Assembly (NCBI GenBank): GCA_900548355.1
Contig: URKR01000003.1
Location: forward strand, 62,001 to 126,000
Direction: 5' to 3'
Origin: an uncultured Oscillospiraceae bacterium
GTDB lineage: Bacteria > Bacillota > Clostridia > Oscillospirales > Ruminococcaceae
Length of the DNA stretch: 64,000 bases
The notes beneath the pieces were generated by a model. It had not been told where the DNA came from. It worked only from the letters and a program-made list of their open reading frames with translations, and made no database searches. The translations under genes and the position numbers were made by a program. The first letter of the stretch is position 1, and each line of letters starts with the position of its first letter. Of this stretch, positions 16,694 to 33,129 are shown piece by piece.

Positions 16694-16695
16694 GG

Positions 16696-16831: not shown

Positions 16832-17290
16832 GGGGGGCAGGCAGATTTTTTTCGAGCGCCGGGGGCGGCGGGCTCGGCAGTACGGTTCTGCCTGGCGGTT
16901 CCGGCGCTGTAGGTCTTGCCTGGCTGTTCCGGCGCTTGCTTGCGCCGGCCGCGCGCTTATTATATAATAAAGGTAGCGTGCGTGCAGAGAGCGCCGTTTC
17001 CGCGGGGTTTGGGGCCAATGCGCCCCGGCCCGCACAACCGCCGCGTGCCGGGCGGTTTTCATGCCCGCACAGGGGTGGCGCGCGGCGTTCGCCCTGGCCC
17101 GGTTTGCTTTCGGCCTGGCCCACGCACAATTCCGGGCGGTTTTGCGCCGGCGCCCTTGCCGTGCCCCGCACAACCACAGGCCAGCCTTTGTTAGAGTGCA
17201 CAAAAATTGGTAATAAAAAACGTCACAATGACGAATATCAGTAGTTTCGCCTGCCGAATTGTGCATAGTGGCGAAAAAGCCCGATATCGA
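16832..17290. other. Gene-free GC-rich intergenic region with short repeats
   Basis: No gene recognised. It holds a 20-bp direct repeat with one mismatch at 16889-16908 and 16917-16936 (28-bp period), further degenerate CCCGCACAACC-type repeats, and an isolated A/T-rich dyad TTATTATATAATAA (about 16957-16970). With TTGCGC 17 bp upstream, the TATAAT inside that dyad resembles a promoter, but nothing recognisable follows it. Confidence 0.45.
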
Positions 17291-17319
17291 TTGACAAAGT
17301 GAAATGTTTGTGATAGTAT
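17291..17319 (+). promoter_or_regulatory. Promoter of the lipoprotein-sortase operon
   Basis: -35 TTGACA (17291-17296), 17-bp spacer, -10 TAGTAT (17314-17319), leaving a leader of about 65 nt that contains a small AATCAAA/TTTGATT hairpin. Confidence 0.78.
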
Positions 17320-17393
17320 GCCAGTAGCACCATAAAGAAATAGCTATCGTTAATCAAACGCTCTTTGATTTAGATGGAGCAGAAAGGCGTAGC

Positions 17394-17876
17394 ATGGGTA
17401 AGCGAGCAGTAGCCGGTTTTTTGACTTTACCGGTTCTTTTTCTTTTTGTAGGGTGCAGTGCCGGGCCGGAGGATGTCCGCGCCACTGCGGACGAAACCGT
17501 ACATACCGCTTTGTTCGACTTTGAAATTTCCAATGTGGCTGCGGTTGACAGCTACCTTTCCATTCTTCCGACCGAAGGCAACCAGCTCGTCCAGATGGAG
17601 CTGACCGTCACCAACACCGGTGAGGATTCCCTGACCATGTTCGCTGAGGATTTCCAGATCCAATGGGGCGATGGCGAGGAAGATTACGGCGTCTGCCTGG
17701 GCGCTGTGGATGACGCCATGGTGCCGTACTCTTACACGCTGGAACCCGGCGGAACCTACACCGGCACCATGGTTGCCCAGGTTCCCACCGGCACCACCCA
17801 GCTGACCGTGGCCTACCAAGAGGTGCTGGCCAGCGGGAAGGATGGGGCCGCCTATTTTGTGGAGGCTTCTTTGTGA
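17394..17876 (+). CDS. Lipoprotein with immunoglobulin-like (DUF4352-like) fold
   Basis: 160 residues. A lipoprotein signal peptide ends in LFVGC (lipobox, Cys 21). The mature part has the alternating strands of telokin-like DUF4352 proteins: FDFEISNVAAVDS, LVQMELTVTNTGEDSL, then LEPGGTYTGTMVAQVPTGT. Such proteins sit on the outer membrane face and probably bind or scaffold other surface proteins. The stop overlaps the sortase GTG by 4 bp, so the two products likely work together at the cell surface. Function beyond that is inference. Confidence 0.8.
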   Translation: MGKRAVAGFLTLPVLFLFVGCSAGPEDVRATADETVHTALFDFEISNVAAVDSYLSILPTEGNQLVQMELTVTNTGEDSLTMFAEDFQIQWGDGEEDYGVCLGAVDDAMVPYSYTLEPGGTYTGTMVAQVPTGTTQLTVAYQEVLASGKDGAAYFVEASL

Positions 17877-18730
17877 AACCCTGGAAGCTGATGCTGGGCA
17901 TGTTTTTGTCCGGTTTGGGGGCGGCGGCCCTTGCCACGGTGGTTTGGGTTGCGCCTGATTGGCTGGCGGAGCGCGCGCTGAAAAGCCAGAAACCCGCCGC
18001 CGCCCAGGCCGCGGTTGTCAACACAGAGGAAACGCCCGCCGCCACACCCAGCCCGGAAGAGGTTGAAGCCGCCCAGCGCGCGCGTTTTGCCGACCTTTTG
18101 GCCCAAAACGATGAGGTTGTGGGTTGGGTGACAGTGCCGGGCACCAACATTGACTACCCGGTTCTGCAAACCGACAACAACCAGTTTTACCTCCGCCATG
18201 ACCTGGATAAGCAATACAACGTGCGGGGGCTGCCTTTTCTGGATTATGAATGCGACGCCAAAAACGGGCGGCATTTGATTATATACGGCCACAACATGGG
18301 TGACGATGAAACCGACCGGTTCACCAACCTGCAAGAGTACCGTGACCCGGATTATTACGCCAGCCACCCTACCATCCAGCTGGACACGCTGTATGAAAGC
18401 CAGGTGTACAAGATTGTCGCGGTGTTTGCCGTGACAGCCCGCACCAGTGACCCGGATTATTTTGCCTATAACACCTATATAAATTTCGAAAGCGACGAAG
18501 AAGAGCAAGCTTACCTGGATGAGGTGGCACAGCGCGCGTTTTATACCACGGGCGATTATGTGCAGCCGAACGAGAAGCTGCTTTCCCTGAGCACCTGCAT
18601 TTATACGATGCCGGATGCACGCATCGTCGTGATGGCCCGCCCCTTGCGGGAGGGTGAGAGCACCGAAGCCGACGCGGTCAACCTCAATTCTGACCCATTG
18701 CTGCCGGCGCGCTGGCCACAGGGCGCATAG
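17873..18730 (+). CDS. Class B sortase
   Basis: 285 residues with an N-terminal membrane anchor (about 5-28). The sortase core has the class B hallmark NDEVVGWVTVPGTNIDYPVL and VRGLPFLDYEC. The catalytic triad is H140 (YGHN), C242 (LSTC) and R250 (DARIVV). It cleaves a sorting motif and joins the protein to peptidoglycan or to another protein. GTG start, GGAGG 7 bp upstream. It sits directly ahead of an LPQTG surface protein, its most likely substrate, although classical SrtB enzymes prefer NPQTN-like motifs and LPXTG is usually handled by class A or C. Confidence 0.93.
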   Translation: MKPWKLMLGMFLSGLGAAALATVVWVAPDWLAERALKSQKPAAAQAAVVNTEETPAATPSPEEVEAAQRARFADLLAQNDEVVGWVTVPGTNIDYPVLQTDNNQFYLRHDLDKQYNVRGLPFLDYECDAKNGRHLIIYGHNMGDDETDRFTNLQEYRDPDYYASHPTIQLDTLYESQVYKIVAVFAVTARTSDPDYFAYNTYINFESDEEEQAYLDEVAQRAFYTTGDYVQPNEKLLSLSTCIYTMPDARIVVMARPLREGESTEADAVNLNSDPLLPARWPQGA

Positions 18731-18833
18731 GGTACCTGCGGCACCCCAAGAAGACGATTTCAGGCGTTATGGCCTACACATGGGGGCGTGGCTGTAATGG
18801 TTGAAATAAATATTTGAAAAAAGGAGTAATAAC

Positions 18834-21674
18834 ATGCAGAAAACGAAAAAGTTTCGTCGTCTGTTGGCGGGCGGTGTAGCAGTGCTGATGCTTGGCGTTA
18901 GCGTTCCTGTTGCGGCGTTTGCTACAGACACGGCTACACCTCAGAACGCAACAGAACCTGCACCTGCGAAGAACTTGACTTTCACTTTCCAGGATGCGGA
19001 TAACAACTCGCAGAATTATGTGATGGACGACATCAAGGGCGGCTTTACGGTTCCTACCGCTCAAGAAGCTCTTGGTTATGACGTCGAAGGTGATTACTAT
19101 TGGTATTGCGACAGCTATGCTGATATGGGCACCTTGGAACCTGGTCAAGACGTTACGGCTGAGCAGTATGCTGCTTGGGATGCTGAATACATCACTTACA
19201 ATCTGAAGGTTGTTGAGGAACCCGCTCCCGAAACCGTCACCATGAACATCCAGTTCAAGGATGGCGACGAGGTCGTTGCTGGCGGCGATTACACTGTCCC
19301 GGCTGGCGTTCAGAACTATGCTGTTCTTGAGCAGTATGTCCCCGAAGGCTATGAAATTGCCGAATTTGGCGATTTCTGGGCCGAAGATGGCGGCAAGCTC
19401 AAAGTTCGCGTTGAGAAGATCGTCAACACTGTCATTATGGGCATCCGTTTCGTCACCCGTGACGGCGAGTTCGTGGCCGGTGGCGACTACTTCCTGCCCG
19501 AAGGCGTTCAGAACTACTCGATTCTTGAGCAGTATCTGTCCGAAGGCTACAAGCTGGCTGATACCGGCGACTTCATGGTTGAAGAAGGCGGCCAGCTGGA
19601 TGTTGTTGTTGAGAAGATCAGCACCGACGTCATGATGAAGATTCGCTTCGTCACTCGTGACGGCGAGTTTGTTTCCGGTGGCGACTACTTCCTGCCCGAA
19701 GGCGTCCAGAACCTCTCGATTCTCGAGGATATCGTGCCCGAAGGCTATCAGATGACCGAGACCGGCGACTTCATGGTTGAAGAAGGCGGCAGCCGTGATG
19801 TGACTGTTGAGAAGGTTGGCGAGACCACCGACGTCATCATGAACATCCGCTTTGTCACCCGTGACGGCGAGTTCGTGGCCGGCGGCGACTACTTCCTGCC
19901 CGAAGGCGTCCAAAACTACTCGATTCTTGAAGATCTCGTGCCCGAAGGTTATCAGATGACCGTCTCCGGCGATTTCATGGTCGAAGCCGGCACCAGCCTT
20001 GATGTGACCATCGAGAAGATCTCCACCGACGTCATCATGAACATCCGCTTCGTCACTCGTGACGGCGAGTTTGTTGCCGGTGGCGACTACTTCCTGCCCG
20101 AAGGCGTCCAGAATCTCTCCATCCTTGAGGATCTGGTGCCCACCGGCTACCGCATGACCGAGACCGGCGACTTCATGGTCGAAGCCGGCACCAGCCGTGA
20201 TGTGACCATCGAACTGATCCCCACCGAAGTTATCATGAACATCCAGTTCTGGGATAACGACAGCGGCGAAGTCGTTGCCGGTGGCGATTACTTCGTCCCG
20301 ATGGATGAAGACGGCATTCAGAACTACTCCATCCTGCAGCAGTATGTCCCCGAAGGCTATGAGATGCTGACCAGCGGCGACTTCTTCGTCGTCGAAGGCG
20401 GCCACCTGGATGTCACCGTCCAGAAGATCCAGCGCGATGTCATCATGAACATCCGCTTCGTCCTGGCTGACGGCACCTTCATCGCTGGCGGCGACTACTT
20501 CCTGCCCGAAGGCATCCAGAACATGAGCATTCTGGAGCAGTATGTGCCCGCCGGCTACAAGATGATGGAAAGCGGCGACTTCTTTGTCACCGAAGGCGGC
20601 CAGGAAGACATCACCGTTGAGAAGATCAACGAAACCGTGACCGTCAGCGTTGCGTTCAAGAACGAGTGGGGCTTCGTCGTTGGCGGCGGCTACTACATCG
20701 TTCCCGCCGGTGAGCAGGATGTCAGCGTGCTTGCGCAGTATGTCCCGGCCGGCTATGTCCTCGATGAGGAAGGCACCATCAACTTTGTCGATGGCCAGCA
20801 CTATGACATCTCTGTCAAGAGCGATGAGTCCATCGTCAACATCCAGTTCATCGACCGTGAAGGCAATGTGATTGCCGGCGGCGACTACTTCGTCCCGACC
20901 GGTGTCCAGAACACCGCGATCCTCGACGAGCTGGGCTACACCCCGGTTGGCTATCGTCAGGTTGTCCACACCTACGTCCTGTTCATGTACGGCCACCACT
21001 ATGTGATCCTGGTTGAGGCTATCCCCGAGCAGGTCACCGCGAAGACCGCTGTCTTCCGCAAGGATGCCGCTGAGGATGTCTGGAACGAGAACCCCGACAA
21101 CCCGGATGAAGTCCGTTACACCTTCTACAGCGACGATGCGGAAGCTACCAACACCGTTCCTTCCATCACCGTTGCCGATGAGACCAAGGAACTGGATTAC
21201 TGGGTTGCCGAGATGGACAGCTCCATCACCCTGCAGCCTGGTGAAGAGTTCTGCTACAACGACCTGGATCAGGGCGCTCTGAAGGATCAGATCGGTGACC
21301 TGCTGTTCATCGCTGTCTACAAGGACGTCGAAGTCGTTGAGCCCACCCCCGCTCCCTCTGAGGAACCGACCCCGGCCCCCTCTGAAGAGCCCACTCCTGC
21401 TCCTTCCGAGCAGCCGACCGCTGAGCCCACCGCCGCGCCGACCGCGCAGCCTGAGACCCCGGCCGACAACAACGACGATAACACCACCACCGTCACCTCT
21501 GATAACAGCGACGATGTTGTGAAGAGCGATACTCCTGCCGACAACACCGCCAAAGTGCTGCCTCAGACTGGCGTTGAGAGCTCTGCCCCCGTCATTGGTT
21601 TTGCCTTCGTGCTCCTGGCGGCTCTGGGCGGCGCCGCAGCCTATCTCTTCGTTGTCCGCAAAAAGCTGAACTAA
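18834..21674 (+). CDS. LPQTG cell-wall-anchored protein with nine beta-rich repeats
   Basis: 946 residues. A Sec signal peptide (1-30) is followed by a unique domain to about 133, nine tandem repeats of about 65 residues (134-731), a short domain, a Pro/Glu-rich wall-spanning spacer with PTPAPSEE units (about 838-870), and the sorting signal LPQTG (909-913), hydrophobic helix and RKKLN tail. Repeat core: IMNIRFVTRDGEFVAGGDYF, then VQNYSILE and a GDFMV strand. AAGGAG ribosome-binding site. Codon choice (GTT, GCT, AAC, TTC) differs from the GC-ending neighbours, as in a highly expressed or acquired gene. The class B sortase just upstream is the likely anchor enzyme. Role unknown; adhesin or stalk is a fair guess. 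Confidence 0.9.
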   Translation: MQKTKKFRRLLAGGVAVLMLGVSVPVAAFATDTATPQNATEPAPAKNLTFTFQDADNNSQNYVMDDIKGGFTVPTAQEALGYDVEGDYYWYCDSYADMGTLEPGQDVTAEQYAAWDAEYITYNLKVVEEPAPETVTMNIQFKDGDEVVAGGDYTVPAGVQNYAVLEQYVPEGYEIAEFGDFWAEDGGKLKVRVEKIVNTVIMGIRFVTRDGEFVAGGDYFLPEGVQNYSILEQYLSEGYKLADTGDFMVEEGGQLDVVVEKISTDVMMKIRFVTRDGEFVSGGDYFLPEGVQNLSILEDIVPEGYQMTETGDFMVEEGGSRDVTVEKVGETTDVIMNIRFVTRDGEFVAGGDYFLPEGVQNYSILEDLVPEGYQMTVSGDFMVEAGTSLDVTIEKISTDVIMNIRFVTRDGEFVAGGDYFLPEGVQNLSILEDLVPTGYRMTETGDFMVEAGTSRDVTIELIPTEVIMNIQFWDNDSGEVVAGGDYFVPMDEDGIQNYSILQQYVPEGYEMLTSGDFFVVEGGHLDVTVQKIQRDVIMNIRFVLADGTFIAGGDYFLPEGIQNMSILEQYVPAGYKMMESGDFFVTEGGQEDITVEKINETVTVSVAFKNEWGFVVGGGYYIVPAGEQDVSVLAQYVPAGYVLDEEGTINFVDGQHYDISVKSDESIVNIQFIDREGNVIAGGDYFVPTGVQNTAILDELGYTPVGYRQVVHTYVLFMYGHHYVILVEAIPEQVTAKTAVFRKDAAEDVWNENPDNPDEVRYTFYSDDAEATNTVPSITVADETKELDYWVAEMDSSITLQPGEEFCYNDLDQGALKDQIGDLLFIAVYKDVEVVEPTPAPSEEPTPAPSEEPTPAPSEQPTAEPTAAPTAQPETPADNNDDNTTTVTSDNSDDVVKSDTPADNTAKVLPQTGVESSAPVIGFAFVLLAALGGAAAYLFVVRKKLN
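19233..21026 (+). repeat. Nine tandem ~195-bp repeats inside the LPQTG gene
   Basis: Nine in-frame copies of about 64-70 codons. Copies 2-5 are the closest to each other (shared VTRDGEFV-GGDYFLPEGVQ), while 1, 8 and 9 have diverged most, suggesting recent expansion from the middle of the array. Confidence 0.88.
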
Positions 21675-21808
21675 GCGCATCCAGGCCGAACGCACGGTGT
21701 CGTTTCCGTGCATGAGGCAAGCGCAAGGTTTCCCCCATGAACGGGTTCCCCCGTCTGCTTTTTCTCAACGAATTGAATGAGCAGGGACCCTAAGGGTCCA
21801 AAAAGTCA

Positions 21809-21850
21809 AAGAACCGCTGTCAGCGCAAGTTGGCAGCGGTTCTTCTTTTA
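21809..21850 (+). terminator. Terminator of the surface-protein operon
   Basis: AAGAACCGCTG / CAGCGGTTCTT stem with a 14-nt loop and CTTTTAT tail. The rest of the 21675-22070 gap holds a second hairpin (GCACGG/CCGTGC near 21692) and no gene. Confidence 0.85.
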
Positions 21851-21986
21851 TCCCGCGCCCCGTGCGTGCCGCAGCGGCCCTTTTGCGCCCGCCCACGGCG
21901 CGCTGGGCCTGGGGGTATATATCGCCCTTCCCCTTCCCTTCCCGCCGCGCTGCCGCGCTCCCCTGCGCCTTTCCAGCCGCCGACAT

Positions 21987-22032
21987 ACAAAGACGCCCCC
22001 GCTCTTTTGCCGAGCAGGGGCGTCTTTTGTGG
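21987..22032. terminator. Bidirectional terminator before the convergent WG-repeat gene
   Basis: ACAAAGACGCCCC ... GGGGCGTCTTTTGT stem, U/A-rich on both sides, 40 bp past the stop of the leftward gene. Confidence 0.85.
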
Positions 22033-22070
22033 GGGGCGCGCTGTAGGATTTTATCTCTATGCGTTTTATA

Positions 22071-23474
22071 TCAGGGCATCCATGCCTGGTAAGCGGCAAA
22101 ATCGCTGCTGGTGTGCAGGGCGCGGCCGTCCAGGCCGATCCAAAGACGGGCGCCGGTATCCGCCTGTACGGCGGCGTAGCCTTCACAGAACAGGCCGCCC
22201 AGCGGCGCATCGGCGGTGGTTTGCAGCGGGTTGCGGATGGCCCGGCAGCCTTCCGGCAGGCGGAAGACCTCCTCCCCCGTCAGGCTGCGGACACTGCCGT
22301 CCGCCGCGGCAATCAGCCCTTCGCCCAGGTGGGCCAGCGGGCTGGGCTGCGGCGCAAAGGCAAGCTCGCCTTCGGTGCTGAGCAGCGTGTACCCATCCGG
22401 CAGGGCCACAATCCAGTGCCCATCGTAGCCGGTATAATCGTACTCAATCCGCTCAATGGTCAGCGCGGTGTTCTGCACCACGGTCTGCCAGGCGGTATCC
22501 AGAATGCGGAAGCCGCCCGGTTCAATCATCAGGTTGCGGCCGTCGGTAAAATGGTCCGCCTGCCACAGGAACGGCGCGGCATCGGGGTCCTGCCGGATGC
22601 GGAACCAGCCGGCGCCGCTGTCCTCAAAGGTTTGCAGCAGGGTCAGGGTGTTGGTGGGCCGGTCATAGGTCGCATAAATCACGATGCCCTCCGGGTCGTC
22701 CGTGTGCTCGTGATCCACATACTGCACAAGGAAGGTCGTGAACTTGGGGTCGGTCACAAGGCCGCTCGCGCCGCCATCGACCGCGCCAAACTCAAACAGC
22801 CGGTTGCCGGCCGTATCGTACACGCCGTAGCGCGGCTGGCCGCCTTCGGGCGATGCTTCCCGCAGGATGGCGATGCCGTCGGTATAACGGCTGTTGAACA
22901 GCGATTCGAACGCCGTGGGGCGTACCGCCGTTTCCCGGGTGATCAGCGTGGCGTTTTCGGCGGCGTCCAGCCAGTAAAGCGCCTGCACGCCGTCGGCTTC
23001 CTCCACCCAGGCCAGCAGCCGGCCGTTGCCCATAGCGCCCAGGTAGCGGTACGGCCCGCCGGTAAACAGCAGGTTGCCGGCTGTATCAATCAGGTTGAAC
23101 GCTGCGGGGCCGTCCTCTCCGTGGCGGGCGCCAAGAAAGCTGAGCGACGCAAAATCACCGGTTTCGGATGTAAAAAAGTCGGTCACACCGTCGGCCCGGG
23201 GCAGTGTGCGCACAACGGCATACCCTTCATGGAAGGGATAGCCATAGTCATAGCCTTCGGGCAGTGTGCAGGCAACCTGGCCATCGGCCGTGATGTAGGC
23301 GTCTGCCTGGGTGCCATCCGGCCGGGTGATGTGGGCGAAGGCAAGGCCCTCGCTGAAATCGCCCAGGGGCACCGCTTCCACAAAAGCGTCCGCCGGCGGC
23401 TCTGCCGCCGAAGGCGCCAGCGCAAGCCAGACAGCCAGCAGCACGGCCGCCAACAAAACCGCCAAACGCCGCAT
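22071..23474 (-). CDS. Exported WG-repeat-like beta-propeller protein
   Basis: 467 residues from an ATG with GGAGGGG upstream. A Sec signal peptide (1-24, RRLAVLLAAVLLAVWLALAP). The mature protein repeats a pattern of aromatic/Gly turns with short strands, such as FSEGLAFAHI, YPFHEGYAVVRT, FNLIDTAGNLLFTG, YGVYDTAGNRLFEF and LGEGLIAAADG. The repeated GLI-x-D-x-G and EGYA(A/V)V turns are those of WG-repeat proteins, which fold as surface beta-propellers or solenoids. No enzymatic motif. No signal for lipid or wall anchoring, so probably secreted or loosely associated. Function unknown; assignment by pattern only. Confidence 0.75.
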   Translation of the reverse strand: MRRLAVLLAAVLLAVWLALAPSAAEPPADAFVEAVPLGDFSEGLAFAHITRPDGTQADAYITADGQVACTLPEGYDYGYPFHEGYAVVRTLPRADGVTDFFTSETGDFASLSFLGARHGEDGPAAFNLIDTAGNLLFTGGPYRYLGAMGNGRLLAWVEEADGVQALYWLDAAENATLITRETAVRPTAFESLFNSRYTDGIAILREASPEGGQPRYGVYDTAGNRLFEFGAVDGGASGLVTDPKFTTFLVQYVDHEHTDDPEGIVIYATYDRPTNTLTLLQTFEDSGAGWFRIRQDPDAAPFLWQADHFTDGRNLMIEPGGFRILDTAWQTVVQNTALTIERIEYDYTGYDGHWIVALPDGYTLLSTEGELAFAPQPSPLAHLGEGLIAAADGSVRSLTGEEVFRLPEGCRAIRNPLQTTADAPLGGLFCEGYAAVQADTGARLWIGLDGRALHTSSDFAAYQAWMP

Positions 23475-23691
23475 GGTTCGCCCCTCCCCCGCCAGAAATG
23501 GCAAAATATGCGCGCAGGAACCGCTGCCGGGTCAGCCGCACCAACCCGGAAAATCGCTGCGCAAAGCGGCGCCAGGGCAGCCGCCTCCGCGTATAGTATA
23601 CCATGCCAAAGCGGGGATTTTCTACGTTTGCGCCGCATTTTTTCGGTTTTTCCCAAAAAATCGGCAGCAGTTTTGTACAGTGTTGCAGCCC

Positions 23692-26316
23692 TCAGGTCAG
23701 ATATTCACGGATCTCGGCCTCCACGGCGGCGACTTCCTTCTCAAACGCCCGGGCCGAAACCCGCAGCCCGCCGCTGCCAAGGATGATGATCTGTTCCGCC
23801 CCGTCCGAACTGACCACCCGCACCCGGTGTTTGCGGCCGAGCTCATGGGTTGTCTTTTCGATGTACATATCGGCGGTTTCGGCCTCACGGGTGTAGACGA
23901 CGTGGATGTTGTGGTACCGCTCAACGCTGCCGACCCCGCCCTTGACCTTGTAGGCGTCAAAGACAAGGATGACGGTGCAGCGGCGGTAACCGGCGTAGTT
24001 GCAAAGGGTATCCTGCAAGCGGCGGCGGGCGATGTCGAGATCGTTTTCGGCCAGGCGGCGCAGGCTGTCCCAGGCAAAGATCACGTTGTAGCCGTCAACC
24101 AGCAGATACTCCGGCCCTGCGGGCTGCGCGGCGGCCTGCCTGGCGGTTTTGGGGGCGGAACCCAGCGCGCGGCGCGCCGCAAGATCGGCGCTCTGGTTCG
24201 GGTTCCGGCGGCGCACCGGGCCATAGGTGCGCTCAAAAATGGCGAGCAGCTCCTTATCCTGCTCAAGCGTGCCGCGGTAGGCATCCGCACGGCGGCGGCG
24301 CGTTTCACCGGCCGCGGTATCGTCGGCGCCGGGCGCGCTGCGGCCCAGCCCGCTTGCCACATGGGCCCGGGCGGGGGCTTCGTCCCAGCGGATCACCGTG
24401 CCGGCGCCATGGCTGCAAAAGACCGAATCGGCCGGGTTTTCGGTATCGGCGTCGGGGTCGTAGCCGGCGGCCGCGATGACGGCCTCCGCGTTGTGGCAGG
24501 GCGCGTAGCCGGCCGGCGTACAGATCAGCCGGCCTTCGCCGCGGGCATAGGCCGCGACCTCCCGCGCGTAGCCGCGCAGCTCCGAAACCGGCGCGCGGCC
24601 GGCCAGCACGGCCAGGTCGCCCTGCTGGGCGGGCGGTTCGGTCTGGCCGCCCATCCGCTGCAGGTCGTTCATGGCGCGGCCCAGGTTCGCGGCCGGCAGC
24701 TCAAGCCGGACGTTGTACCAGGGTTCCAGCAGCGCCACATGCCCGTCCCGCGCGGCGGTGCGCAGGCCCTGGCGCACGGCGCGGTAGGTGGCCTGGCGGA
24801 AGTCGCCGCCCTCGGTGTGCTTGAGGTGGGCGCGGCCGGCCGTCAGCGTGATTTTGACATCGGCCAGCGGCGCGCCGGTCAGCACGCCGGGATGGGTGCG
24901 CTCGGCCAGGTGGGTCAAAATCAGCCGCTGCCAGTTGCCGTCCAGGGTATCCGGCCGGCAGGCCGCCGCCAGCTGGATGCCGCTGCCGCGCGGCGCGGGT
25001 TCCAGCAGCAGGTGCACCTCGGCATAATGGCGCAGCGGCTCATAATGGCCGAAACCCTCGACCGGGGCGGTCAGCGTTTCTTTATACAGGATGCCGCCCT
25101 CGTCGAAGCCGGCCTCGATGCCGAAACGGGTTGTAAGCAGGTTTTGCAGGATCTCGAGCTGCACCTCCCCCATCAGCTGAAGGTGGATTTCGCCGAGCGC
25201 TTCCTGCCAGACGACGTGGAGCTGGGGGTCCTCCTGCTCCAGCTGGCGCAGCGCGCGCAGGGCGGTGTGGGGGTCGCCGCCCTCGGGCAGCAGCAGGCGG
25301 TAGGTCAGCACGGGTTCCAGCACCGGGGCCGCCGCGTCGGGCTGTACGCCAAGGCCCTGGCCGGGGTAGGTCGCGGTCAGGCCGGTCACGGCGACGACAT
25401 CGCCGGGCAGCGCTTCGCTCGTGAGCCGGAACTTGCTGCCGGAGTAAACCCGCAACTGGTCAGCCTTCTCGGCAAAGGGGGCGCGGGCGTCCTCCCTGGC
25501 TGTGATCGTCGCCTTGACCGGCAGGCTGCCGTCGGTCACTTTGAGGTAGGTCAGCCGCGCGCCGGCATCGTCCGAAGCGATTTTGAACACCCGCGCGCCA
25601 AAGGCCCCGGCGGCTTCGGGCTGGCGGGTGTAGCGCCGCAGCGCGGCGAGCAGATCGTCCACGCCGTCCAGCCGCAGCGCCGCGCCGAACAGGCAGGGGA
25701 AAACTTCTCGCCGGGCGATCGCGGTGATTACATCCGCCTCGCGCGGCGCGCCGTCGGCGAGCACCTCGGCCATCAGCGTTTCGCTCGCCATCGCGAGGGC
25801 TTCGGCCCGGTCGGCCTCGGCGTCGGGGCCAAAATCGACGCAGCCGTCGCCAAACCGGCCGCGCAGTTCCCGCAGCCGCACGGCGCGGTCGGCCCCGGGC
25901 AGGTCCATCTTGTTCACAAAGACAAAGGTCGGCACCCTGTACCGCGCGAGCAGGTTCCAGAGCGTCTGGGTGTGGGCCTGGACGCCGTCGGTGCCGGAGA
26001 CGACGAGGATCGCGTAATCAAGCACCTGCAGGGTGCGCTCTGCCTCCGCCGAAAAATCGACATGGCCGGGGGTGTCGAGCAGGGTCAGCCGGGTTTCCTC
26101 CAAACCGGCGGCATCGGCCGGCAGGTCGAGCACGGCCTGCTTGGCAAAGATTGTGATGCCGCGGGCGCGTTCCATCGCGTCGGTATCAAGAAAAGCGTCG
26201 CGGTGGTCCACCCGCCCCAGCTTGCGCAGAACGCCGGCGCGGTAGAGCATCGCTTCGGCCAGCGTCGTTTTGCCGCTGTCAACATGGGCCAAAATGCCGA
26301 TGACCAGTCGTTTCAT
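23692..26316 (-). CDS. EF-G/TetM-like translational GTPase fused to a YacP/Rae1-type NYN nuclease
   Basis: 874 residues. Residues 1-about 640 are a ribosomal-protection-type GTPase: G1 GILAHVDSGKTTLAE, G3 DTPGHVDF, G4 NKMD, then EF-G-like domains II-V. A linker (about 640-732) containing SVFCSHGAGTVIRWDE leads to a C-terminal NYN/PIN-like domain (about 735-874): YLLVDGYNVIFAWDSLR, VILVFDAYKV and TREAETADMYIE match the acidic active-site pattern of YacP. B. subtilis YacP (Rae1) cuts mRNA in the ribosomal A site, where TetM-like GTPases also bind, so the fusion would deliver a nuclease to the ribosome. Whether it also gives tetracycline protection cannot be told. Start is the ATG at 26316. Unrelated to the adjacent glycosyltransferase operon. 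Confidence 0.9.
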   Translation of the reverse strand: MKRLVIGILAHVDSGKTTLAEAMLYRAGVLRKLGRVDHRDAFLDTDAMERARGITIFAKQAVLDLPADAAGLEETRLTLLDTPGHVDFSAEAERTLQVLDYAILVVSGTDGVQAHTQTLWNLLARYRVPTFVFVNKMDLPGADRAVRLRELRGRFGDGCVDFGPDAEADRAEALAMASETLMAEVLADGAPREADVITAIARREVFPCLFGAALRLDGVDDLLAALRRYTRQPEAAGAFGARVFKIASDDAGARLTYLKVTDGSLPVKATITAREDARAPFAEKADQLRVYSGSKFRLTSEALPGDVVAVTGLTATYPGQGLGVQPDAAAPVLEPVLTYRLLLPEGGDPHTALRALRQLEQEDPQLHVVWQEALGEIHLQLMGEVQLEILQNLLTTRFGIEAGFDEGGILYKETLTAPVEGFGHYEPLRHYAEVHLLLEPAPRGSGIQLAAACRPDTLDGNWQRLILTHLAERTHPGVLTGAPLADVKITLTAGRAHLKHTEGGDFRQATYRAVRQGLRTAARDGHVALLEPWYNVRLELPAANLGRAMNDLQRMGGQTEPPAQQGDLAVLAGRAPVSELRGYAREVAAYARGEGRLICTPAGYAPCHNAEAVIAAAGYDPDADTENPADSVFCSHGAGTVIRWDEAPARAHVASGLGRSAPGADDTAAGETRRRRADAYRGTLEQDKELLAIFERTYGPVRRRNPNQSADLAARRALGSAPKTARQAAAQPAGPEYLLVDGYNVIFAWDSLRRLAENDLDIARRRLQDTLCNYAGYRRCTVILVFDAYKVKGGVGSVERYHNIHVVYTREAETADMYIEKTTHELGRKHRVRVVSSDGAEQIIILGSGGLRVSARAFEKEVAAVEAEIREYLT

Positions 26317-26388
26317 ACATCCCCCTGCCGGCGCGGCGGGATTTGGGGCGGCCGAACCCGCCCCGGCCCGCGCCGGGGTATCCCTTAT

Positions 26389-26417
26389 ATTCTACCTTTT
26401 TTCGCGGCGGTTGTATA
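26389..26417 (-). promoter_or_regulatory. Possible promoter of the GTPase-NYN gene
   Basis: Minus strand: -35 TATACA (4 of 6 matches to consensus, 26412-26417), 17-bp spacer, -10 TAGAAT (26389-26394), 73 bp before the start codon. Confidence 0.4.
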
Positions 26418-26448
26418 GGGGGAGGGGAATCGTGCGGCTGTGCAATTT

Positions 26449-27486
26449 TCAACAATTCCGCAAAGATGTCTGGCAGCCGCCGGCCGCGCGGCGGGCGGGC
26501 AGGGCGGCGTAGATTTCCAGCATCTGCCGGCCGAGCGCGGGCAGGCTGCGCGCTTCGGCCACGGCGCGGCCGGCGGCGGTCAGATCGGGCAGGCGGCCGC
26601 TGAGGATACCTTCCGCCTTTTGCAGAAAGCCTTCGAAATCGGCGGCCTTGTAGACGTTCACCCCGTCGGCCAGCCAGCCCGCGTAGACCGGGATGTCCCG
26701 CACAAGCACCGGCACGCCGCAGCCAAGCGCTTCGAGCACGACGATGCCCTCGGTCTCCTCAAGGCTTGCGAAGCAGAAGAGGTCGGCCCCGCAGTAGGCG
26801 TCGCGCAGGGCGGCCTGGTCAACAAAGCCGGCAAAGTGCAGGTTTGCCGGCGCTTCGGCCATCGCGGCGCGCACCTCGGCCGGGACAAGGGCGGGGTCGG
26901 TGTAGCCGAACCAGAACCATTCGGCGCCCGGCAGCGCGCGGGCAAGCGCGATGAAATCGAGAATTCCCTTACGCACCATATAGTGCCCGGCCGAGACAAC
27001 CACCCTGGTTGTTTCCGAAAGGCCGTACCGCGCGCGGAAGGCCGCGCCGGCAGCCGGGTTCGGCGCAAAGAAACCGGTATCCACCCCATTTGAGAGCGCC
27101 CGCACCGGCGCGCGCAGGCCATAGGTATCCAGGATGGATTTCGCGTAGGGCGTCGGGGTCAGTACAATATCGCCGCGGTTGTAGCAGAACCGCAGCCAGC
27201 GGCCGAACAGCGGGGCCAACGCGTTCGAGCCGACAAAAGAATTGCGGAAATCCTGCTCGGTCGAATGGCCGTAGTAGACAACGGGCTCGCCGCGCAGACG
27301 GGCGAGCAGCGCGGCGAAGGGCGCGTCCGGCAGGACCGTGTTGATGTGCACGGCGTCGGCCTTCTGCCAGGTTGTCACAACGGTGACGCCGTTTGCTTCC
27401 AGCATACGGCGCTGGTGCGCCACCGCCTGCCCCACCCCGCTGCGCCTCACAAGGCCCAGAGAGCCGGTATAAAGATGAACTGTCAT
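26449..27486 (-). CDS. GT4-family glycosyltransferase (probable second glycolipid glucosyltransferase)
   Basis: 345 residues, GT-B fold. Opening VHLYTGSLGLVRRSGVGQAV with the GVG loop, a YYGHSTEQDF segment after the first Rossmann half, donor-site residues around FCFASLEETEGIVVLEALGC (EX7E motif) and GVPVLVRDIP. It is the third gene of a GT-VTT-GT operon. The same pairing of two GT4 enzymes makes mono- and diglucosyl-diacylglycerol in other Firmicutes (LafA/LafB-like), with this sequence resembling the second enzyme. Acceptor is inferred from context; polysaccharide synthesis is the alternative. Confidence 0.83.
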   Translation of the reverse strand: MTVHLYTGSLGLVRRSGVGQAVAHQRRMLEANGVTVVTTWQKADAVHINTVLPDAPFAALLARLRGEPVVYYGHSTEQDFRNSFVGSNALAPLFGRWLRFCYNRGDIVLTPTPYAKSILDTYGLRAPVRALSNGVDTGFFAPNPAAGAAFRARYGLSETTRVVVSAGHYMVRKGILDFIALARALPGAEWFWFGYTDPALVPAEVRAAMAEAPANLHFAGFVDQAALRDAYCGADLFCFASLEETEGIVVLEALGCGVPVLVRDIPVYAGWLADGVNVYKAADFEGFLQKAEGILSGRLPDLTAAGRAVAEARSLPALGRQMLEIYAALPARRAAGGCQTSLRNC

Positions 27487-27501
27487 AAGAAAAACGCCTC
27501 C

Positions 27502-28161
27502 TTACGCCCACATCCCCAGCACCCGCTGGAACAGCACCGTCAGCCCCAGGCTGTACAGCGCGATGGAAAACGGTTTACAAAGCAGGATGATCGCGGTATA
27601 CAGCGCGGGGCGGATGGTTGTGGTGCCGGCCAGAAAGCACAGGTAATCATCCGGCGCAACCGGGAAAAAGATCAGCAGCGCAAACCACCGCGCAAACCGG
27701 CCGCCCTCACTGGTCCAGCGGTCGTATTTGTCAATCAGGCTGCGCGGGAACATCTTGTACAGCAGTGGCCGCCCGCAGCTTCGGGCGATTGCAAAGGCGG
27801 CCAGGCTGCCTGCACAGATGCCGACATAGTTATACACAAACCCCCACCACGGCCCAAACAGCACAACCCCCGCCAGGCAGCCAAGCCCGCCCGGCAGGAT
27901 CGGCACCACGACCTGCACGGCCTGAAACAGGACAAAGAGCGCCGCGGCCCAGGGACCGAAGGGTTCCAAAAACGCCTGCAGCGCCGCGCGGGAGCCGAGC
28001 AGCCCGGCGCGCCACATCCACACCCCGGCCACGCAGCAGAGCACAAACCCCAGCACCGAAACAAGCTGCATCGGGTTTTGCAAAGCGGCCCGGGCGGCGT
28101 TCTTGATCGATTCAAAGGTTTTTTGCAGCCAAAGCATCGGGTCTTTCCTCATACGTTCCAT
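27502..28161 (-). CDS. VTT-domain (TVP38/TMEM64, DedA-like) membrane protein
   Basis: 219 residues with about five membrane segments. The VTT core is present: VPILPGGLGCLAGVVLFGPW (re-entrant loop), NYVGICAGSLAAFAIARSCG, and RWFALLIFFPVAPDDYLCF near the second re-entrant helix. Family members include lipid scramblases and flippases that move undecaprenyl phosphate or phospholipids. The gene overlaps the first glycosyltransferase by 13 bp and precedes the second by 15 bp, so a role in moving the glycolipid or lipid carrier made by the two enzymes is a reasonable inference. Confidence 0.87.
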   Translation of the reverse strand: MERMRKDPMLWLQKTFESIKNAARAALQNPMQLVSVLGFVLCCVAGVWMWRAGLLGSRAALQAFLEPFGPWAAALFVLFQAVQVVVPILPGGLGCLAGVVLFGPWWGFVYNYVGICAGSLAAFAIARSCGRPLLYKMFPRSLIDKYDRWTSEGGRFARWFALLIFFPVAPDDYLCFLAGTTTIRPALYTAIILLCKPFSIALYSLGLTVLFQRVLGMWA

Positions 28162-29327
28162 AGGGTAATTCCTTTCCGGGGCAAAGCGGTTTTTTCCCGC
28201 TGCCAGATCAAACGGCGGTAGAGCGCGGCGGCCCGTTCGCCAAAGGTGGTTTCATCAAAAGCGGCGGCGCCTGCGCGGGCCGCTGCGGCCATCCGGGCGC
28301 GGGCGTCCGGGTTGGCAAGCAGGGTACGCAGCCGGGTTTCCAGCTCGGCCGGCGTGCGGTACTGCCACCCGTTGCAGCCGTCCCGGATCACACCGTTTAA
28401 GCAGGCATCGGCCCGGCAGACAGCCGGCAGCCCGGCCGCAAGCGCTTCACAGTAGGTAAGCCCCTGGGTTTCGCTTGTGGAAGCCGAAACAAAAATATCG
28501 CCCAGCGCATAGTAGAGCGGCACGGTATCGGGCCGGGCCATGCCGGCAAACACAACATTGGGCAGGCCCGCGGCCAGCGTCTCCAGCCGCATACGGTCCG
28601 GGCCGTCGCCGACAAGCAGCAGCGTGGCTGTCTCGCCAAGGGCCGCCGCCACCGCAAAGAGCTCTTCAACATTCTTTTCCCTTGCCAGCCTGCCCAGATA
28701 CAGCAGCACCGGCCGGCCTTCGGGCAGGCGGAGACGGCGGCGCAGCGCGGCGACGGCTTCCGGGTCCGGGTTGGCGAAGCGGGCGGTCTCGATGCCGGTC
28801 GGCAGCGTGGCAACCGGGCAGGCAACGCCGTACCCGTTGAGCAGCGCGGCCACCTTGGCGGTCGGGGCGATGAGCGCATCACACCGGGCTGCAATGTGCC
28901 GGGTAAAGCAGCGGGCCGCCGCGCGCCCCCAGCGCTGAGACGGTGAAAAGTAGTGGGTGTACTCTTCATACACGGTGTGGTATGTATGCACAAGCGGGGC
29001 CCCGCAGGCGCGGGCAATCCGCCGTGCCAGCGGGAAGGTGCTGAACTCACATTGGGAATGGACAACATCCGGCCGCCAGGCGACCAGCGCATGCAGAGCG
29101 GCGTCGGCATCCGGCGTGCGCAGCCGCGCGCCCGGGTAGATCAATCCCGCATTGACCGAGCCGACAGCCCAGACGCCGTCGGCCGCCCAGCCGTGCAGGC
29201 CGCCGGCCAGCGTCAGTATGCGGACCTCATGCCCCTGGCGCTGCAAGGCGCGGCGCAGCGCCAGCACGCTGGTGACCACGCCGTTGACGGCGGGGATGTA
29301 CCAATCGGTTGTCAGCAGGATCTTCAT
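28149..29327 (-). CDS. GT4-family glycosyltransferase (probable first glycolipid glucosyltransferase)
   Basis: 392 residues from an ATG behind GAGGG. N-terminal MKILLTTDWYIPAVNGVV is the typical opening of monoglucosyl-diacylglycerol synthases and PimA-like enzymes; HTYHTVYEEYTHYF is a classic acceptor-site stretch; the donor site includes LLYLGRLAREKNVEEL and SASTSETQGLTYCEALAAG (EX7E). First gene of the three-gene operon, whose promoter carries two 11-bp-phased GTTCAGAAAA repeats. Likely transfers glucose to a lipid acceptor at the inner membrane face; exact acceptor not provable from sequence. Confidence 0.85.
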   Translation of the reverse strand: MKILLTTDWYIPAVNGVVTSVLALRRALQRQGHEVRILTLAGGLHGWAADGVWAVGSVNAGLIYPGARLRTPDADAALHALVAWRPDVVHSQCEFSTFPLARRIARACGAPLVHTYHTVYEEYTHYFSPSQRWGRAAARCFTRHIAARCDALIAPTAKVAALLNGYGVACPVATLPTGIETARFANPDPEAVAALRRRLRLPEGRPVLLYLGRLAREKNVEELFAVAAALGETATLLLVGDGPDRMRLETLAAGLPNVVFAGMARPDTVPLYYALGDIFVSASTSETQGLTYCEALAAGLPAVCRADACLNGVIRDGCNGWQYRTPAELETRLRTLLANPDARARMAAAARAGAAAFDETTFGERAAALYRRLIWQREKTALPRKGITLWNV

Positions 29328-29465
29328 CGTCGTTCCCTCATTTCCTGTCATCTTGCGAATTGCGCGGCGCCCAATCTCGCGGCGCGCCTGCAACCGCTCT
29401 ATCTATTAGAACGCGGCAGCCGCGCGCTTTTTGGCAGGTTTACAAAATTTTCACCGCGTTTTTAC

Positions 29466-29502
29466 TCTACCACCCAAAAGTTCAGAAAAGGTTCAGAAAA
29501 CG
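29466..29502 (-). promoter_or_regulatory. Promoter of the glycolipid operon with 11-bp direct repeats
   Basis: Plus strand GTTCAGAAAA at 29482-29491 and again at 29493-29502, an 11-bp step, overlapping the place of the -35 box for a minus-strand -10 TAGAGT (29466-29471). This is the geometry of OmpR-class activator sites, but the motif differs from the TTACAT repeats at 12217-12244. Confidence 0.45.
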
Positions 29503-29515
29503 GAAAGAAGAGCAA

Positions 29516-29555
29516 AAATTAAAAGAGCCCCGCACGGGGCATCCCGTGCGGGGCT
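29516..29555 (-). terminator. Terminator of nifJ
   Basis: Minus-strand perfect 13-bp stem AGCCCCGCACGGG / CCCGTGCGGGGCT with a 4-nt loop, followed by CTTTTAATTTTT. Confidence 0.9.
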
Positions 29556-29598
29556 GAAAGGTTATGCGGTTACGCCGCGAAGGCGGGCCTGCACAAGA

Positions 29599-32500
29599 TT
29601 ACTTGTACAGCTCGACCAGGCGGGTCAGGTGCTCGTAGCGATCCTCGGCAGCCTTCTGGTTCTTGGCGAACAGATCCTGCGCACGCTCCGGGAAGGCGCG
29701 GGCCAGGCGGCTGTAACGGGTTTCGTTGGCGAGGAAGTCCTGATACTTGGTCATATCGCCGGCCTTGGAGGTCAGGGTGAACGGGTTCTTGCCCTGAGCC
29801 TTGAGGGCCGGGTTGAAGGTGAAGAGGTTCCAGTAGCCGGCCTCGACAGCCTTCTTCATCTCGTTCTGGCAGTTGGTCATGCCGCCCTTGACACCGTGCA
29901 GTTCGCAGGGCGCGTAGCCGATGATGATGGACGGGCCGGGGTAAGCCTCGGCTTCGGCAATCGCCTTGACGGCCTGGGCCATGTTGGCGCCGAGGGCGAT
30001 CTGGGCGACGTAGATGTAGCCGTAGGTCATGCAGATCTCAGCCAGGCTCTTCTTGCTGATCTCCTTGCCGGCGGCCGCGAACTGGCAAACTTCGCCGATG
30101 TTCGAAGCCTTGGAGGCCTGTCCGCCGGTGTTCGAATACATCTCGGTGTCGAAGACCATGACGTTGACGTCGTGGCCGGAAGCCAGGACGTGGTCGAGGC
30201 CGCCGTAGCCGATGTCATAGGCCCAGCCGTCGCCGCCGAAGATCCAGAAGCTCTTCTTGGCGAGGAACTGCTTGTCCTTGAGGATCTCCTTGGCCTCGTC
30301 GGAGCCGTCGGCTTCGAGCGCGGCGATCAGGTCCTTCGCGGGCTGGTCGTTCTGCTTGGTGTTGGCCTTGGTCTCGATGAACTTCTCGATCGCGGCGTCG
30401 AGCTCGGCGCTCTTGCCCTTCATCGCTTCAACCTTCTTGAGCAGGTTCTCGCGGACGGTCTCATAGCCGATCTGCATACCGAGGCCGTGCTCGGCGTTGT
30501 CCTCAAACAGGGAGTTGATCCAGGCGGGGCCGCAGCCGGATTCCTTGTTGGTGGTGTAGGGGCTGATCGAAGCGGTGCCGCCCCAGATCGAAGAGCAGCC
30601 GGTGGCGTTGGAGATGAACATCTTTTCGCCGAAGAGCTGGGTGATCAGGCGGGCGTAGCTGGTCTCGGCGCAGCCGGCGCAGGAGCCCGAGAACTCAAGC
30701 AGCGGCTGGTTGAACTGAGAACCCTTGACGGTGGTCTCGGCCATCATGCCGGGCTTCTTGCGGATGTTCTCGACACAGTAGTCGAAGGCAGCCTGCTGTT
30801 CGCTCTGGCTTTCCTGCGGCTGCATCTCGATCGCCTTGGTCGGGCAGACGGTGACGCACTCGCCGCAGCCCATGCAGTCGAGCGGGGAGACAGCCATCGT
30901 GAACTTGTATTCGCCGGGCTTCGGCTTGAGGTCGGCGGCCTTCAGGCTCTCCGGCGCAGCCGCGATCTCGTCGGCAGTCAGGCAGAACGGGCGGATCGTC
31001 GCATGAGAGCAGACGAAGGCGCACTGGTTGCACTGGATGCACTTGTTGGGATCCCAGCAGGGAACCATGACGGCGGTGCCGCGCTTTTCATACGCAGAAG
31101 CGCCAAGCTCCCATTCGCCGTTGGGGTTCTTCGCAAAGGCGGAAACCGGCAGGCTGTCGCCATCCATACGGGCGACGGGCTCCATGACGTTGCGAACCAT
31201 CTTGACGAGGGCTTCGGGGCCCTTGAGCTCCTTGGCCGGGGCGTCGGGGGCCGGGTTGTGCCAGCTTTCGGGCACTTCGACCTTGTGGACGGCGTCCACG
31301 CCGGCGTCGATAGCCTTGTAGTTCATCTGGACAACGGCGTCGCCCTTCTTGCCATAGCTCTTCTTGGCGGCCTGCTTCATGTAATCGACAGCCTCGTCGA
31401 TCGGCATGATATCGGCCAGCTTGAAGAAGGCGGACTGCAGGATCGTGTTGGTGCGCTTGCCCATGCCGATCTCGATCGCCTTGTCGATGGCGTTGATGGT
31501 GTAGAGCTGGATGTTGTTGTCGGCGATGTACTTCTTGTCGGCCGCGTTCAGGTGCTCGTCGAGCTCCTCATCGGTCCACTGGCAGTTGATCATGAAGACG
31601 CCGCCGGGCTTGACATCCTGGACCATCTTCATGCCCATATGGATGTAAGCGGGGTTGTGGCAGGCGACAAAGTCAGCCTGGTTGATGTAGTAGGGGCTGC
31701 GGATGGGCTTGTCGCCAAAGCGCAGGTGGCTGATGGTCACGCCGCCGGTCTTCTTCGAGTCATACTGGAAGTAAGCCTGGATGTACTTGTCGGTATGGTC
31801 GCCAATGATCTTGGTGGAGTTCTTGTTCGCGCCGACGGTGCCGTCGCCGCCGAGGCCCCAGAACTTGCACTCCTTGGTGCCGGGGGCGGAGGTGATCGGC
31901 GCGGGCTTGACTTCGGGCAGGCTCAGGTTGGTGACGTCATCGACAATGCCGATGGTGAAGCGGTGCTTCGGGTCATCCTTCTCGAGTTCCTTGTAAACCG
32001 CAAAGACCGAGCTCGGCGGGGTATCCTTCGAGCCGAGGCCGTAGCGGCCGCCGGTCAGCACGATGTCGTTCATGCCGGCCTCACGCAGGGTAGCGGCGAC
32101 ATCGAGGTAGAGCGGTTCGCCGAGCGAACCGGGCTCCTTGGTGCGGTCGAGCACGGCGATCTTCTTGACCGTCTTGGGCAGAACCTTCAAGAGGGCTTCG
32201 GACACCCAGGGACGGTACAGACGCACGAGCACAAGGCCGACCTTCTCGCCGTGGGCGTTGAGGTAGTCGATGACTTCCTCGGCCACGTCGCAGATCGAGC
32301 CCATCGCGATGATGACGCGGTCGGCATCTTCGGCGCCGTAGTAGTTGAACAGATCATAGTTGGTGCCGATCTTGGCGTTGATCTTGTCCATGTACTTCTT
32401 GACAACGGCGGGCAGGGCCTCATAAGCGGGGTTGCAGGCCTCACGATGCTGGAAGAAGATGTCGCCGTTTTCATGGCTGCCGCGGGTCTTGGGGTGCTCG

Positions 32501-33129
32501 GGGTTGAGCGCCTCGGCGCGGAACTGGGCCACGGCGTCCATGTTGCACATTTCCTTCAGGTCTTCATAGTCCCACTTTTCGATCTTCTGGATCTCGTGGG
32601 AGGTGCGGAAGCCGTCAAAGAAGTTGACAAACGGCACGCGGCCTTCAATGGCGGACAGATGCGCCACGGGGGACAGGTCCATAACCTCCTGGGGGTTGGA
32701 CTCGGCGAGCATGGCGAAGCCGGTCTGGCGGGTGGCGTAAACGTCGCTGTGGTCGCCGAAGATGTTCAGCGCCTGGGTGGCGACGGTACGGGCCGAAACG
32801 TCAAAGACGCAGGGCAGGCCTTCGGCTGCGATCTTGTACATGTTGGGGATCATCAGCAGAAGACCCTGGGAGGCGGTGAAGGTGGTGGTGATGGCGCCGG
32901 TGCCCAGCGAACCGTGCACCGCGCCGGCAGCGCCGGCCTCGGACTCCATCTCAACAACCTTGACCTGGTTGCCGAAGATGTTCTTCAGCCCCGCCGCGCT
33001 CCACTGGTCGACGGTGTCGGCCATCGGGCTCGAAGGGGTGATGGGGTAGATAGCAGCCACATCGGTAAACGCATATGCCACATGCGCCGCCGCGGTATTG
33101 CCATCCATAGACTGTTTGGCTCTTGGCAT
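29599..33129 (-). CDS. nifJ: Pyruvate:ferredoxin (flavodoxin) oxidoreductase
   Basis: 1,176 residues, the full single-chain length. It oxidises pyruvate with CoA to acetyl-CoA and CO2, reducing ferredoxin. Domain I starts QSMDGNTAAAHVAYAFTDVA and YPITPSSPM (pyruvate binding); the gamma-like domain follows; two [4Fe-4S] clusters are in CIQCNQCAFVCSH and CMGCGECVTVCP (about residues 695-760); the TPP domain contains GDGWAYDIGYGGLDHV; a third cluster uses CAGCAET and the late CELHGVKGG Cys. The ATG at 33129 follows GGAGG. Monocistronic. Its likely electron acceptor is the small ferredoxin at 46285-46452. Confidence 0.97.
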   Translation of the reverse strand: MPRAKQSMDGNTAAAHVAYAFTDVAAIYPITPSSPMADTVDQWSAAGLKNIFGNQVKVVEMESEAGAAGAVHGSLGTGAITTTFTASQGLLLMIPNMYKIAAEGLPCVFDVSARTVATQALNIFGDHSDVYATRQTGFAMLAESNPQEVMDLSPVAHLSAIEGRVPFVNFFDGFRTSHEIQKIEKWDYEDLKEMCNMDAVAQFRAEALNPEHPKTRGSHENGDIFFQHREACNPAYEALPAVVKKYMDKINAKIGTNYDLFNYYGAEDADRVIIAMGSICDVAEEVIDYLNAHGEKVGLVLVRLYRPWVSEALLKVLPKTVKKIAVLDRTKEPGSLGEPLYLDVAATLREAGMNDIVLTGGRYGLGSKDTPPSSVFAVYKELEKDDPKHRFTIGIVDDVTNLSLPEVKPAPITSAPGTKECKFWGLGGDGTVGANKNSTKIIGDHTDKYIQAYFQYDSKKTGGVTISHLRFGDKPIRSPYYINQADFVACHNPAYIHMGMKMVQDVKPGGVFMINCQWTDEELDEHLNAADKKYIADNNIQLYTINAIDKAIEIGMGKRTNTILQSAFFKLADIMPIDEAVDYMKQAAKKSYGKKGDAVVQMNYKAIDAGVDAVHKVEVPESWHNPAPDAPAKELKGPEALVKMVRNVMEPVARMDGDSLPVSAFAKNPNGEWELGASAYEKRGTAVMVPCWDPNKCIQCNQCAFVCSHATIRPFCLTADEIAAAPESLKAADLKPKPGEYKFTMAVSPLDCMGCGECVTVCPTKAIEMQPQESQSEQQAAFDYCVENIRKKPGMMAETTVKGSQFNQPLLEFSGSCAGCAETSYARLITQLFGEKMFISNATGCSSIWGGTASISPYTTNKESGCGPAWINSLFEDNAEHGLGMQIGYETVRENLLKKVEAMKGKSAELDAAIEKFIETKANTKQNDQPAKDLIAALEADGSDEAKEILKDKQFLAKKSFWIFGGDGWAYDIGYGGLDHVLASGHDVNVMVFDTEMYSNTGGQASKASNIGEVCQFAAAGKEISKKSLAEICMTYGYIYVAQIALGANMAQAVKAIAEAEAYPGPSIIIGYAPCELHGVKGGMTNCQNEMKKAVEAGYWNLFTFNPALKAQGKNPFTLTSKAGDMTKYQDFLANETRYSRLARAFPERAQDLFAKNQKAAEDRYEHLTRLVELYK

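Follow-up and report, generated by a model that had tools for sequence, protein, structure and literature searches.

The locus analysed here raises the question of what a translational GTPase does when it carries a nuclease of the Rae1 type on the same polypeptide. In the stretch of 64,000 nucleotides that was analysed as a whole, referred to as the window, a single intact open reading frame (23692-26316, minus strand) starts with ATG, has no internal stop codon and encodes such a protein of 874 amino acids. On balance, and by a modest degree, we lean towards the view that this fusion is a GTPase-guided, ribosome-dependent mRNA endonuclease whose two modules would act by turns. The gene is composed of the following parts.

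23692..26316, minus strand: whole fusion open reading frame, 874 aa (ORF listing and Pfam)
25627..26307, minus strand: GTPase domain, aa 4-230, with G1, G3 and G4 intact (GTP_EFTU, PF00009, 5.2e-45)
25372..25599, minus strand: domain II, aa 240-315 (EF-G_D2, PF22042)
25108..25317, minus strand: domain III, aa 334-403 (EFG_III, PF14492)
24754..25092, minus strand: domain IV, aa 409-521 (EFG_IV, PF03764)
25009..25056, minus strand: near-invariant domain IV loop, aa 421-436, GxGHxEPLRHYAEVHL (conservation 0.941, 77 rows)
24790..24837, minus strand: near-invariant domain IV tip, aa 494-509, GRAHxKHTEGGDFRQA (conservation 0.95)
24487..24732, minus strand: domain V, aa 529-610 (EFG_C, PF00679)
24361..24519, minus strand: domain V extension, predicted to be folded, aa 600-652, GYxPCHN...FCSHGAG...H (alignments and model)
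24112..24360, minus strand: linker, aa 653-735, mostly predicted to be disordered (pLDDT below 50 at 659-730)
24208..24264, minus strand: linker motif, predicted to be helical, aa 685-703, DKELxAIFERTYGPxKRR (conservation against flanks)
23704..24105, minus strand: NYN_YacP / Rae1-type nuclease domain, aa 738-871 (PF05991, 2.4e-46; 5mq8/5mq9, 2.7e-23)
within 23704..24105, minus strand: NYN acidic residues D741, D787, D816, E820 and D838 (alignments)

All six Pfam domains scored above their own curated cut-offs, the NYN_YacP profile reaching 158 bits against a gathering score of 24.6. In the PDB the fused NYN matched the YacP structures 5mq8/5mq9, which we take to be the B. subtilis protein, with an E value of 2.7e-23. 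The G motifs read AHVDSGKTT (G1), DTPGH (G3) and NKMD (G4), and their key residues were invariant in 71 aligned rows, comprising the window protein and 70 of the 80 fetched loci; a simple-pattern reading took in 76 of these loci and the other four were covered by the 71-row alignment. With domains I-V and intact G motifs the protein has the build of EF-G/EF-2-type factors. These results bear out the first-pass annotation, which had described one polypeptide joining a full EF-G/Tet-type GTPase with intact G1, G3 and G4 motifs to a C-terminal NYN_YacP domain. On the opposite strand a frame of 1035 aa is open (window 23311-26418, plus strand), which is most likely a product of the high G+C content and no gene.

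The fusion is real, widespread and conserved. Full-length proteins of 874 aa with 99-100% identity were found on many contigs (among the best 120 of 7997 scored), which excludes an assembly join, a frameshift or chance as its source; no break was seen at the border between the domains, where such a join had been named as a possible pitfall. A survey of the domain pair had also been suggested, and it showed that the fusion occurs widely among genomes. Relatives of some kind were encoded in at least 518 stretches of the genome collection; among the best 80 of these, 77 match nearly the whole query, three run off their contig (L030, L054, L068), and the closest relative among the named loci belongs to Candidatus Gemmiger stercoripullorum (81%), so that a gut bacterium of the Gemmiger type is the most likely source of the window. 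In six pairs with other Gemmiger, dN/dS lay at 0.11-0.21 for the NYN and at 0.20-0.31 for the GTPase part, values which indicate at the sequence level that both modules are intact and under purifying selection. Two unusual copies were seen. L158 (G067) carries the GTPase and NYN parts in two reading frames, either because the gene is broken or split or through an error of sequencing. The fused copy L151 (G221) has diverged strongly; its G1 motif is altered, it reads DAYN instead of DGYN, and its function has possibly changed.

The domain pairing itself has been known since 2015, when Tet-NYN fusions in ten clostridial species were reported in one passage of Atkinson 2015 (PMC4342817) and filed with the Tet subfamily. 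The pairing and the bacterial group are the same as here; the text of that study consulted here does not mention the replacement of Rae1, the single clade, the tip signature or the linker motif described below. A functional study of the fusion was not found in an open-licence library, and among the entries listed there no further report was recognisable as dealing with the pairing. The database record of one such protein, from Monoglobus, calls it 'translation factor GTPase family protein'.

According to the parts of two reports consulted here (PMC12320835, PMC6613710), Rae1 attacks mRNA located in the A site of the ribosome. The fused domain belongs to the same NYN family by sequence and shares its acidic active-site positions. 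D741 and D787 were identical in 32/32 fused and 24/24 standalone rows, and D816, E820 and D838 in every fused or standalone row that reaches them; E813 is replaced by Gln in four rows of either kind. Judged from these alignments, the acidic residues of the fused NYN match those of standalone Rae1. Conservation of both catalytic sets in orthologues had been proposed as a check, and the NYN acidic residues as well as the key residues of the G motifs were kept.

Rae1/YacP is a standalone protein of about 170 aa whose gene adjoins rlmB, whereas here the NYN sits on a GTPase encoded elsewhere in the genome. In two loci examined with Pfam the standalone rae1 was flanked on one side by a gene for an RNA methyltransferase (SpoU/rlmB) and on the other by one for a sigma factor, and among 24 standalone loci the upstream frame measured 246-315 aa in 19 and the downstream frame 206-240 aa in 23. 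All 13 fusion genomes checked possess rlmB. An NYN frame starting within 700 bases past it was seen in G307 alone, and none followed rlmB in the 12/12 fusion-only genomes. The gene order typical of Rae1/YacP is accordingly not that of the window, where the NYN is fused.

This arrangement was reflected in the wider samples. Each of 23 fusion genomes that had been selected by locus contained a single NYN_YacP, the fused one, in frames of 855-1360 aa. In the class sample of 293 genomes, 192 had an NYN match. The 150 listed matches fell in 149 genomes, of which 59 had only frames of at most 220 aa, 82 only frames of at least 840 aa, one both sizes and seven other lengths; fusion genomes of this sample that were not among the 150 listed matches were called from frame length. 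A search with the domain IV-V segment found a fusion-sized frame (at least 780 aa) in 97 genomes, all with an NYN match. Hence 97 of the 104 genomes with fusion-type genes keep one long frame, the seven broken or cut at a contig end (G067, G085, G179, G195, G208, G213, G258) being set aside. A second NYN_YacP over the cut-off was counted in 1/97 fusion genomes versus 87/189 others (Fisher 1.8e-18, kinship ignored), a value which overstates the exclusion since the trees give the fusion a single origin and the genomes are therefore not independent. Of four genomes with two NYN matches, G307 alone proved to have a genuine second NYN; the other three show just a 47-residue match under the cut-off, and G284 was dropped likewise. 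In the order sample an NYN was present in 64 of 148 genomes, in 62 of them within frames of at least 833 aa; the other two frames measured 465 and 478 aa, and G424 holds a second piece of 43 aa. No standalone NYN gene was seen among these 64 genomes. The remaining 84 of the 148 lack an NYN (completeness was not reported), which suggests that its function is dispensable.

By gene content, the fusion stands in for standalone Rae1 in many gut Clostridia. That it occurs in place of a separate Rae1 gene suggests that the two activities probably work together, and it argues for a ribosome-dependent role of the Rae1 type, even if a single ancestral event may underlie the exclusion. The position of the standalone gene also bears on another explanation, in which the protein would serve rRNA or tRNA processing or ribosome quality control, the GTPase recognising a subunit or an assembly state and the NYN trimming rRNA or tRNA. 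A role in rRNA/tRNA maturation is an earlier proposal for the NYN domain, cited in a passage of Atkinson 2015 (PMC4342817), and in the two loci read with Pfam the neighbour of rae1 is an rRNA methyltransferase gene; L116 also has an RNase III-domain gene there, where L097 has Thy1. However, the characterised member of the family acts on A-site mRNA, as far as the consulted parts of PMC12320835 and PMC6613710 describe it, and the best conserved stretches of the fusion are the loops of domain IV, which in EF-G and TetM extend to the decoding centre. We therefore consider processing an unlikely role, ranking second among the three rivals of the A-site nuclease.

The GTPase part had been called TetM-like. 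Domains I-V and the G motifs are common to the fusion and to Tet(M)/Tet(O), with about 26-28% identity over domains I-V; unlike these proteins, the fusion has another tip, a domain V extension, a linker and the NYN. On the NCBIfam model tet_protect it reached 355.9 bits, below the curated cut-off of 775; a Tet-like protein from the same set of genomes exceeded that value, at 892. It likewise stayed below the cut-off of TIGR00484 for elongation factor G proper (228.6 of 659.4 bits). With elongation factor G it shares domains I-V and the His at the H573 tip position; the rest of the tip differs, identity in structural matches is about 24-30%, and the fusion has added modules.

In a 63-row tree, 35 fused GTPases lay on one side of a branch (SH-aLRT 92), 20 NYN-less relatives lay outside this group, and six Tet-like proteins were set off by a branch of length 1.66; EF-G and L151 formed long branches, and many rows had an odd composition. 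In a 60-row tree without L151 and EF-G the fused clade received 100/100, with a bootstrap that had not fully settled. The sampled fused GTPases form one clade in these trees, a group apart from TetM/TetO. The label TetM-like consequently does not extend to TetM proper, as the GTPase falls into a group of its own and has a distinct domain IV tip. In the NYN tree 32 fused domains came together with one standalone NYN among them, L104 of genome G232. This gene encodes 190 aa and has no rlmB-sized frame upstream; G232 also has an NYN-less GTPase (L143). A split or a transfer of the domain is a possible origin of L104.

The tip of domain IV was of special interest. Among 77 rows, the best 16-residue windows of the protein were 500-515 (0.985) and 421-436 (0.941), both in domain IV, the G3 region at 79-94 scoring lower (0.93) in the scan of all windows. 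H497 aligns with H573 of T. thermophilus EF-G, and a His occupies this position in 34/35 fused and 20/20 NYN-less rows, compared with a Tyr in TetM and TetO. As His is also present in 2/6 Tet-like rows, it is no proof of EF-G-like action. Moreover, K499-H500 of the fusion occupy the position of P509-V510 in TetM, so that the Pro509/Val510 signature of that protein is missing. Pro509 of TetM overlaps the bound tetracycline, as stated in the part of PMC7456112 consulted, and TetM carrying S508A P509A V510A can remain active, as stated in that of PMC4750697. Since TetM with alanines there can work, the Lys-His tip alone leaves tetracycline activity possible.

These observations bear on whether the fusion is an antibiotic-protection factor, whose GTPase would dislodge tetracycline or another A-site drug and whose NYN would clear the mRNA off ribosomes stalled by the drug; a passage of Atkinson 2015 (PMC4342817) makes a suggestion of this kind. 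The Tet filing in that passage, the identity to Tet(M)/Tet(O) and the compatibility of a changed tip with activity agree with protection. The low tet_protect score next to that of the Tet-like protein of the same sample, Lys-His where TetM has Pro-Val, and the long separate branch argue against it. Besides, a plasmid copy in Monoglobus is without a predicted resistance feature, unlike the fetched TetM and TetO records which carry one. Plain tetracycline resistance is therefore less likely, and protection in the broader sense appears improbable to us, if the first among the rivals to be considered.

The genetic surroundings gave no further hint. Among 40 loci with long flanks no conserved operon partner was found, the commonest other family occurring in 4 loci; 43 loci had been taken, and three, the window among them, were without a fused frame under the script filter. 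The absence of a conserved neighbour in these 40 loci counts against antibiotic protection as well as against the mechanism that we favour. As for regulatory RNA near the fusion, an Rfam search of 15000-35000 gave just a tRNA and a DUF3800-XI RNA about 7 kb away. The DUF3800-XI RNA (67.8 bits, Rfam) lies close to the tRNA (window 16209-16255 and 16699-16771, both minus strand). Upstream of the fusion, at 26449-29393 (minus strand), Pfam placed a VTT-domain gene between two glycosyltransferase genes. A sortase-domain gene (17873-18730, plus strand) adjoins a gene for a 946-aa repeat protein (18834-21674, plus strand) with LPQTG near its end, and the two are likely a sortase/substrate pair; the repeats also matched Pfam YjhX_toxin without any individual stretch passing, and this match is probably spurious.

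Homologues that lack the fused domain, which the first-pass annotation had listed as evidence against its interpretation, do exist, yet they stand on branches outside the fusion clade. These KHTxGGDFR GTPases of Clostridia (L130-L149; 620-724 aa, G129 with two copies) share the tip with the fusion and carry the greater part of the domain V extension, and they have neither linker nor NYN. Both members tested on tet_protect stayed under the cut-off. In the class sample they co-occurred with a standalone Rae1 in 13/20 genomes versus 75/169, a difference that was not significant (p = 0.10), and we rejected this co-occurrence as Rosetta-stone support. Seven of the 20 genomes lack Rae1, one of them (G226) also lacking a full-length frame, which shows that this GTPase family also occurs where the nuclease is missing. 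The domain V extension (600-652), mostly confident in the AlphaFold2 model, is largely common to the NYN-less relatives and absent from TetM/TetO, and it is probably older than the fusion since these relatives share it. C607 was found in 35/35 and C634 in 33/35 fused rows. We make no claim of a metal site, as H608 was kept in 24/35 and H636 in 31/35 fused rows; H636 occurs in 5/20 NYN-less rows.

How the two modules are joined was addressed with structure models. The AlphaFold2 model of the window protein had a mean pLDDT of 84.2 and fell below 50 at residues 659-730; that of the orthologue L070 gave a similar picture with lower confidence (77.9). The pTM values of 0.65 and 0.57 mean that the placement of the NYN relative to the GTPase cannot be read from the models; they predict a flexible linker of about 70-80 residues. 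In a structure search with the fusion model no NYN match appeared among the 50 listed entries, because the GTPase fills the list. Within the linker the motif at 685-703 had a majority share of 0.74 versus 0.31 and 0.29 in its flanks. Matches with E below 0.2 were confined to fusion genes (7/7 fusion genomes, 0/5 others), and elsewhere in these 12 genomes the 25-residue query, which is insensitive, gave weak matches only, in frames of 37-64 aa.

Such a linker would also suit a loose tandem of two independent ribosome factors which are linked in one chain solely for joint expression and are not coupled mechanistically. A long linker predicted to be disordered in both models, the absence of Rae1 from 7/20 genomes with NYN-less relatives, the nesting of L104 (which may be split) among the fused NYNs and the two reading frames of the G067 copy are in line with this idea. 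It is opposed by the 97/104 fusion-type genomes that keep one long frame, the other seven being broken or contig-cut, and by a linker motif which is conserved between unconserved flanks. We regard the loose tandem as the least probable of the three rivals.

We now return to the GTPase-guided mRNA endonuclease. The A site receives the domain IV tip of EF-G and TetM, and it is also where Rae1 cleaves the codon, as in B. subtilis. We know of no settled account of how Rae1 finds and enters paused ribosomes. In the fusion, the GTPase part would bring the welded Rae1 nuclease to the ribosome. With GTP bound, domains I-V would bind to the factor site of a ribosome that has paused, and the domain IV tip, whose His aligns with H573 of EF-G, would enter and clear or check the A site. 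GTP hydrolysis would then withdraw the tip, and the linker-held NYN may enter the vacated A site and cut the codon as Rae1 does; the cut mRNA would then be degraded and the ribosome rescued. The first-pass annotation had pictured the GTPase docking while the NYN cuts. Because TetM domain IV and Rae1 occupy the same A-site space, docking and cutting at once are unlikely, and the flexible tether fits alternation better, with the GTPase acting first and the nuclease after its withdrawal. Its proposal of a Rae1-type, ribosome-dependent role is thus upheld in part: the retained catalytic sets, the wide occurrence of the fusion and the replacement of Rae1 agree with it, and simultaneous docking and cutting is improbable.

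The clearest support that the sequences lend to this mechanism is the presence of the fusion in place of free Rae1. Its clearest weak points are the GTPases without Rae1, the NYN-less majority of the order sample and an exclusion that may be one ancestral event. More tentatively, and with considerable doubt, the fusion may be a GTP-gated A-site nuclease, a two-stroke machine for rescue and mRNA decay. An EF-G-like domain IV with its tip His at the EF-G position and its KHTEGGDFR signature would move or clear the stalled complex, the tethered Rae1 would cut the codon in the A site thus emptied, and the linker motif would dock on the ribosome or the GTPase. Such a machine would have replaced free Rae1 in many gut Oscillospirales and Lachnospirales, which we take to be the groups of the fusion-bearing gut bacteria.

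A GTPase that carries the only Rae1 of its cell would offer a direct handle on the step that goes with cleavage. Moreover, the fusion warns against taking these common gut genes, which a passage of Atkinson 2015 (PMC4342817) files under Tet, for plain tetracycline resistance. The NYN-less KHTxGGDFR GTPases deserve attention as well.
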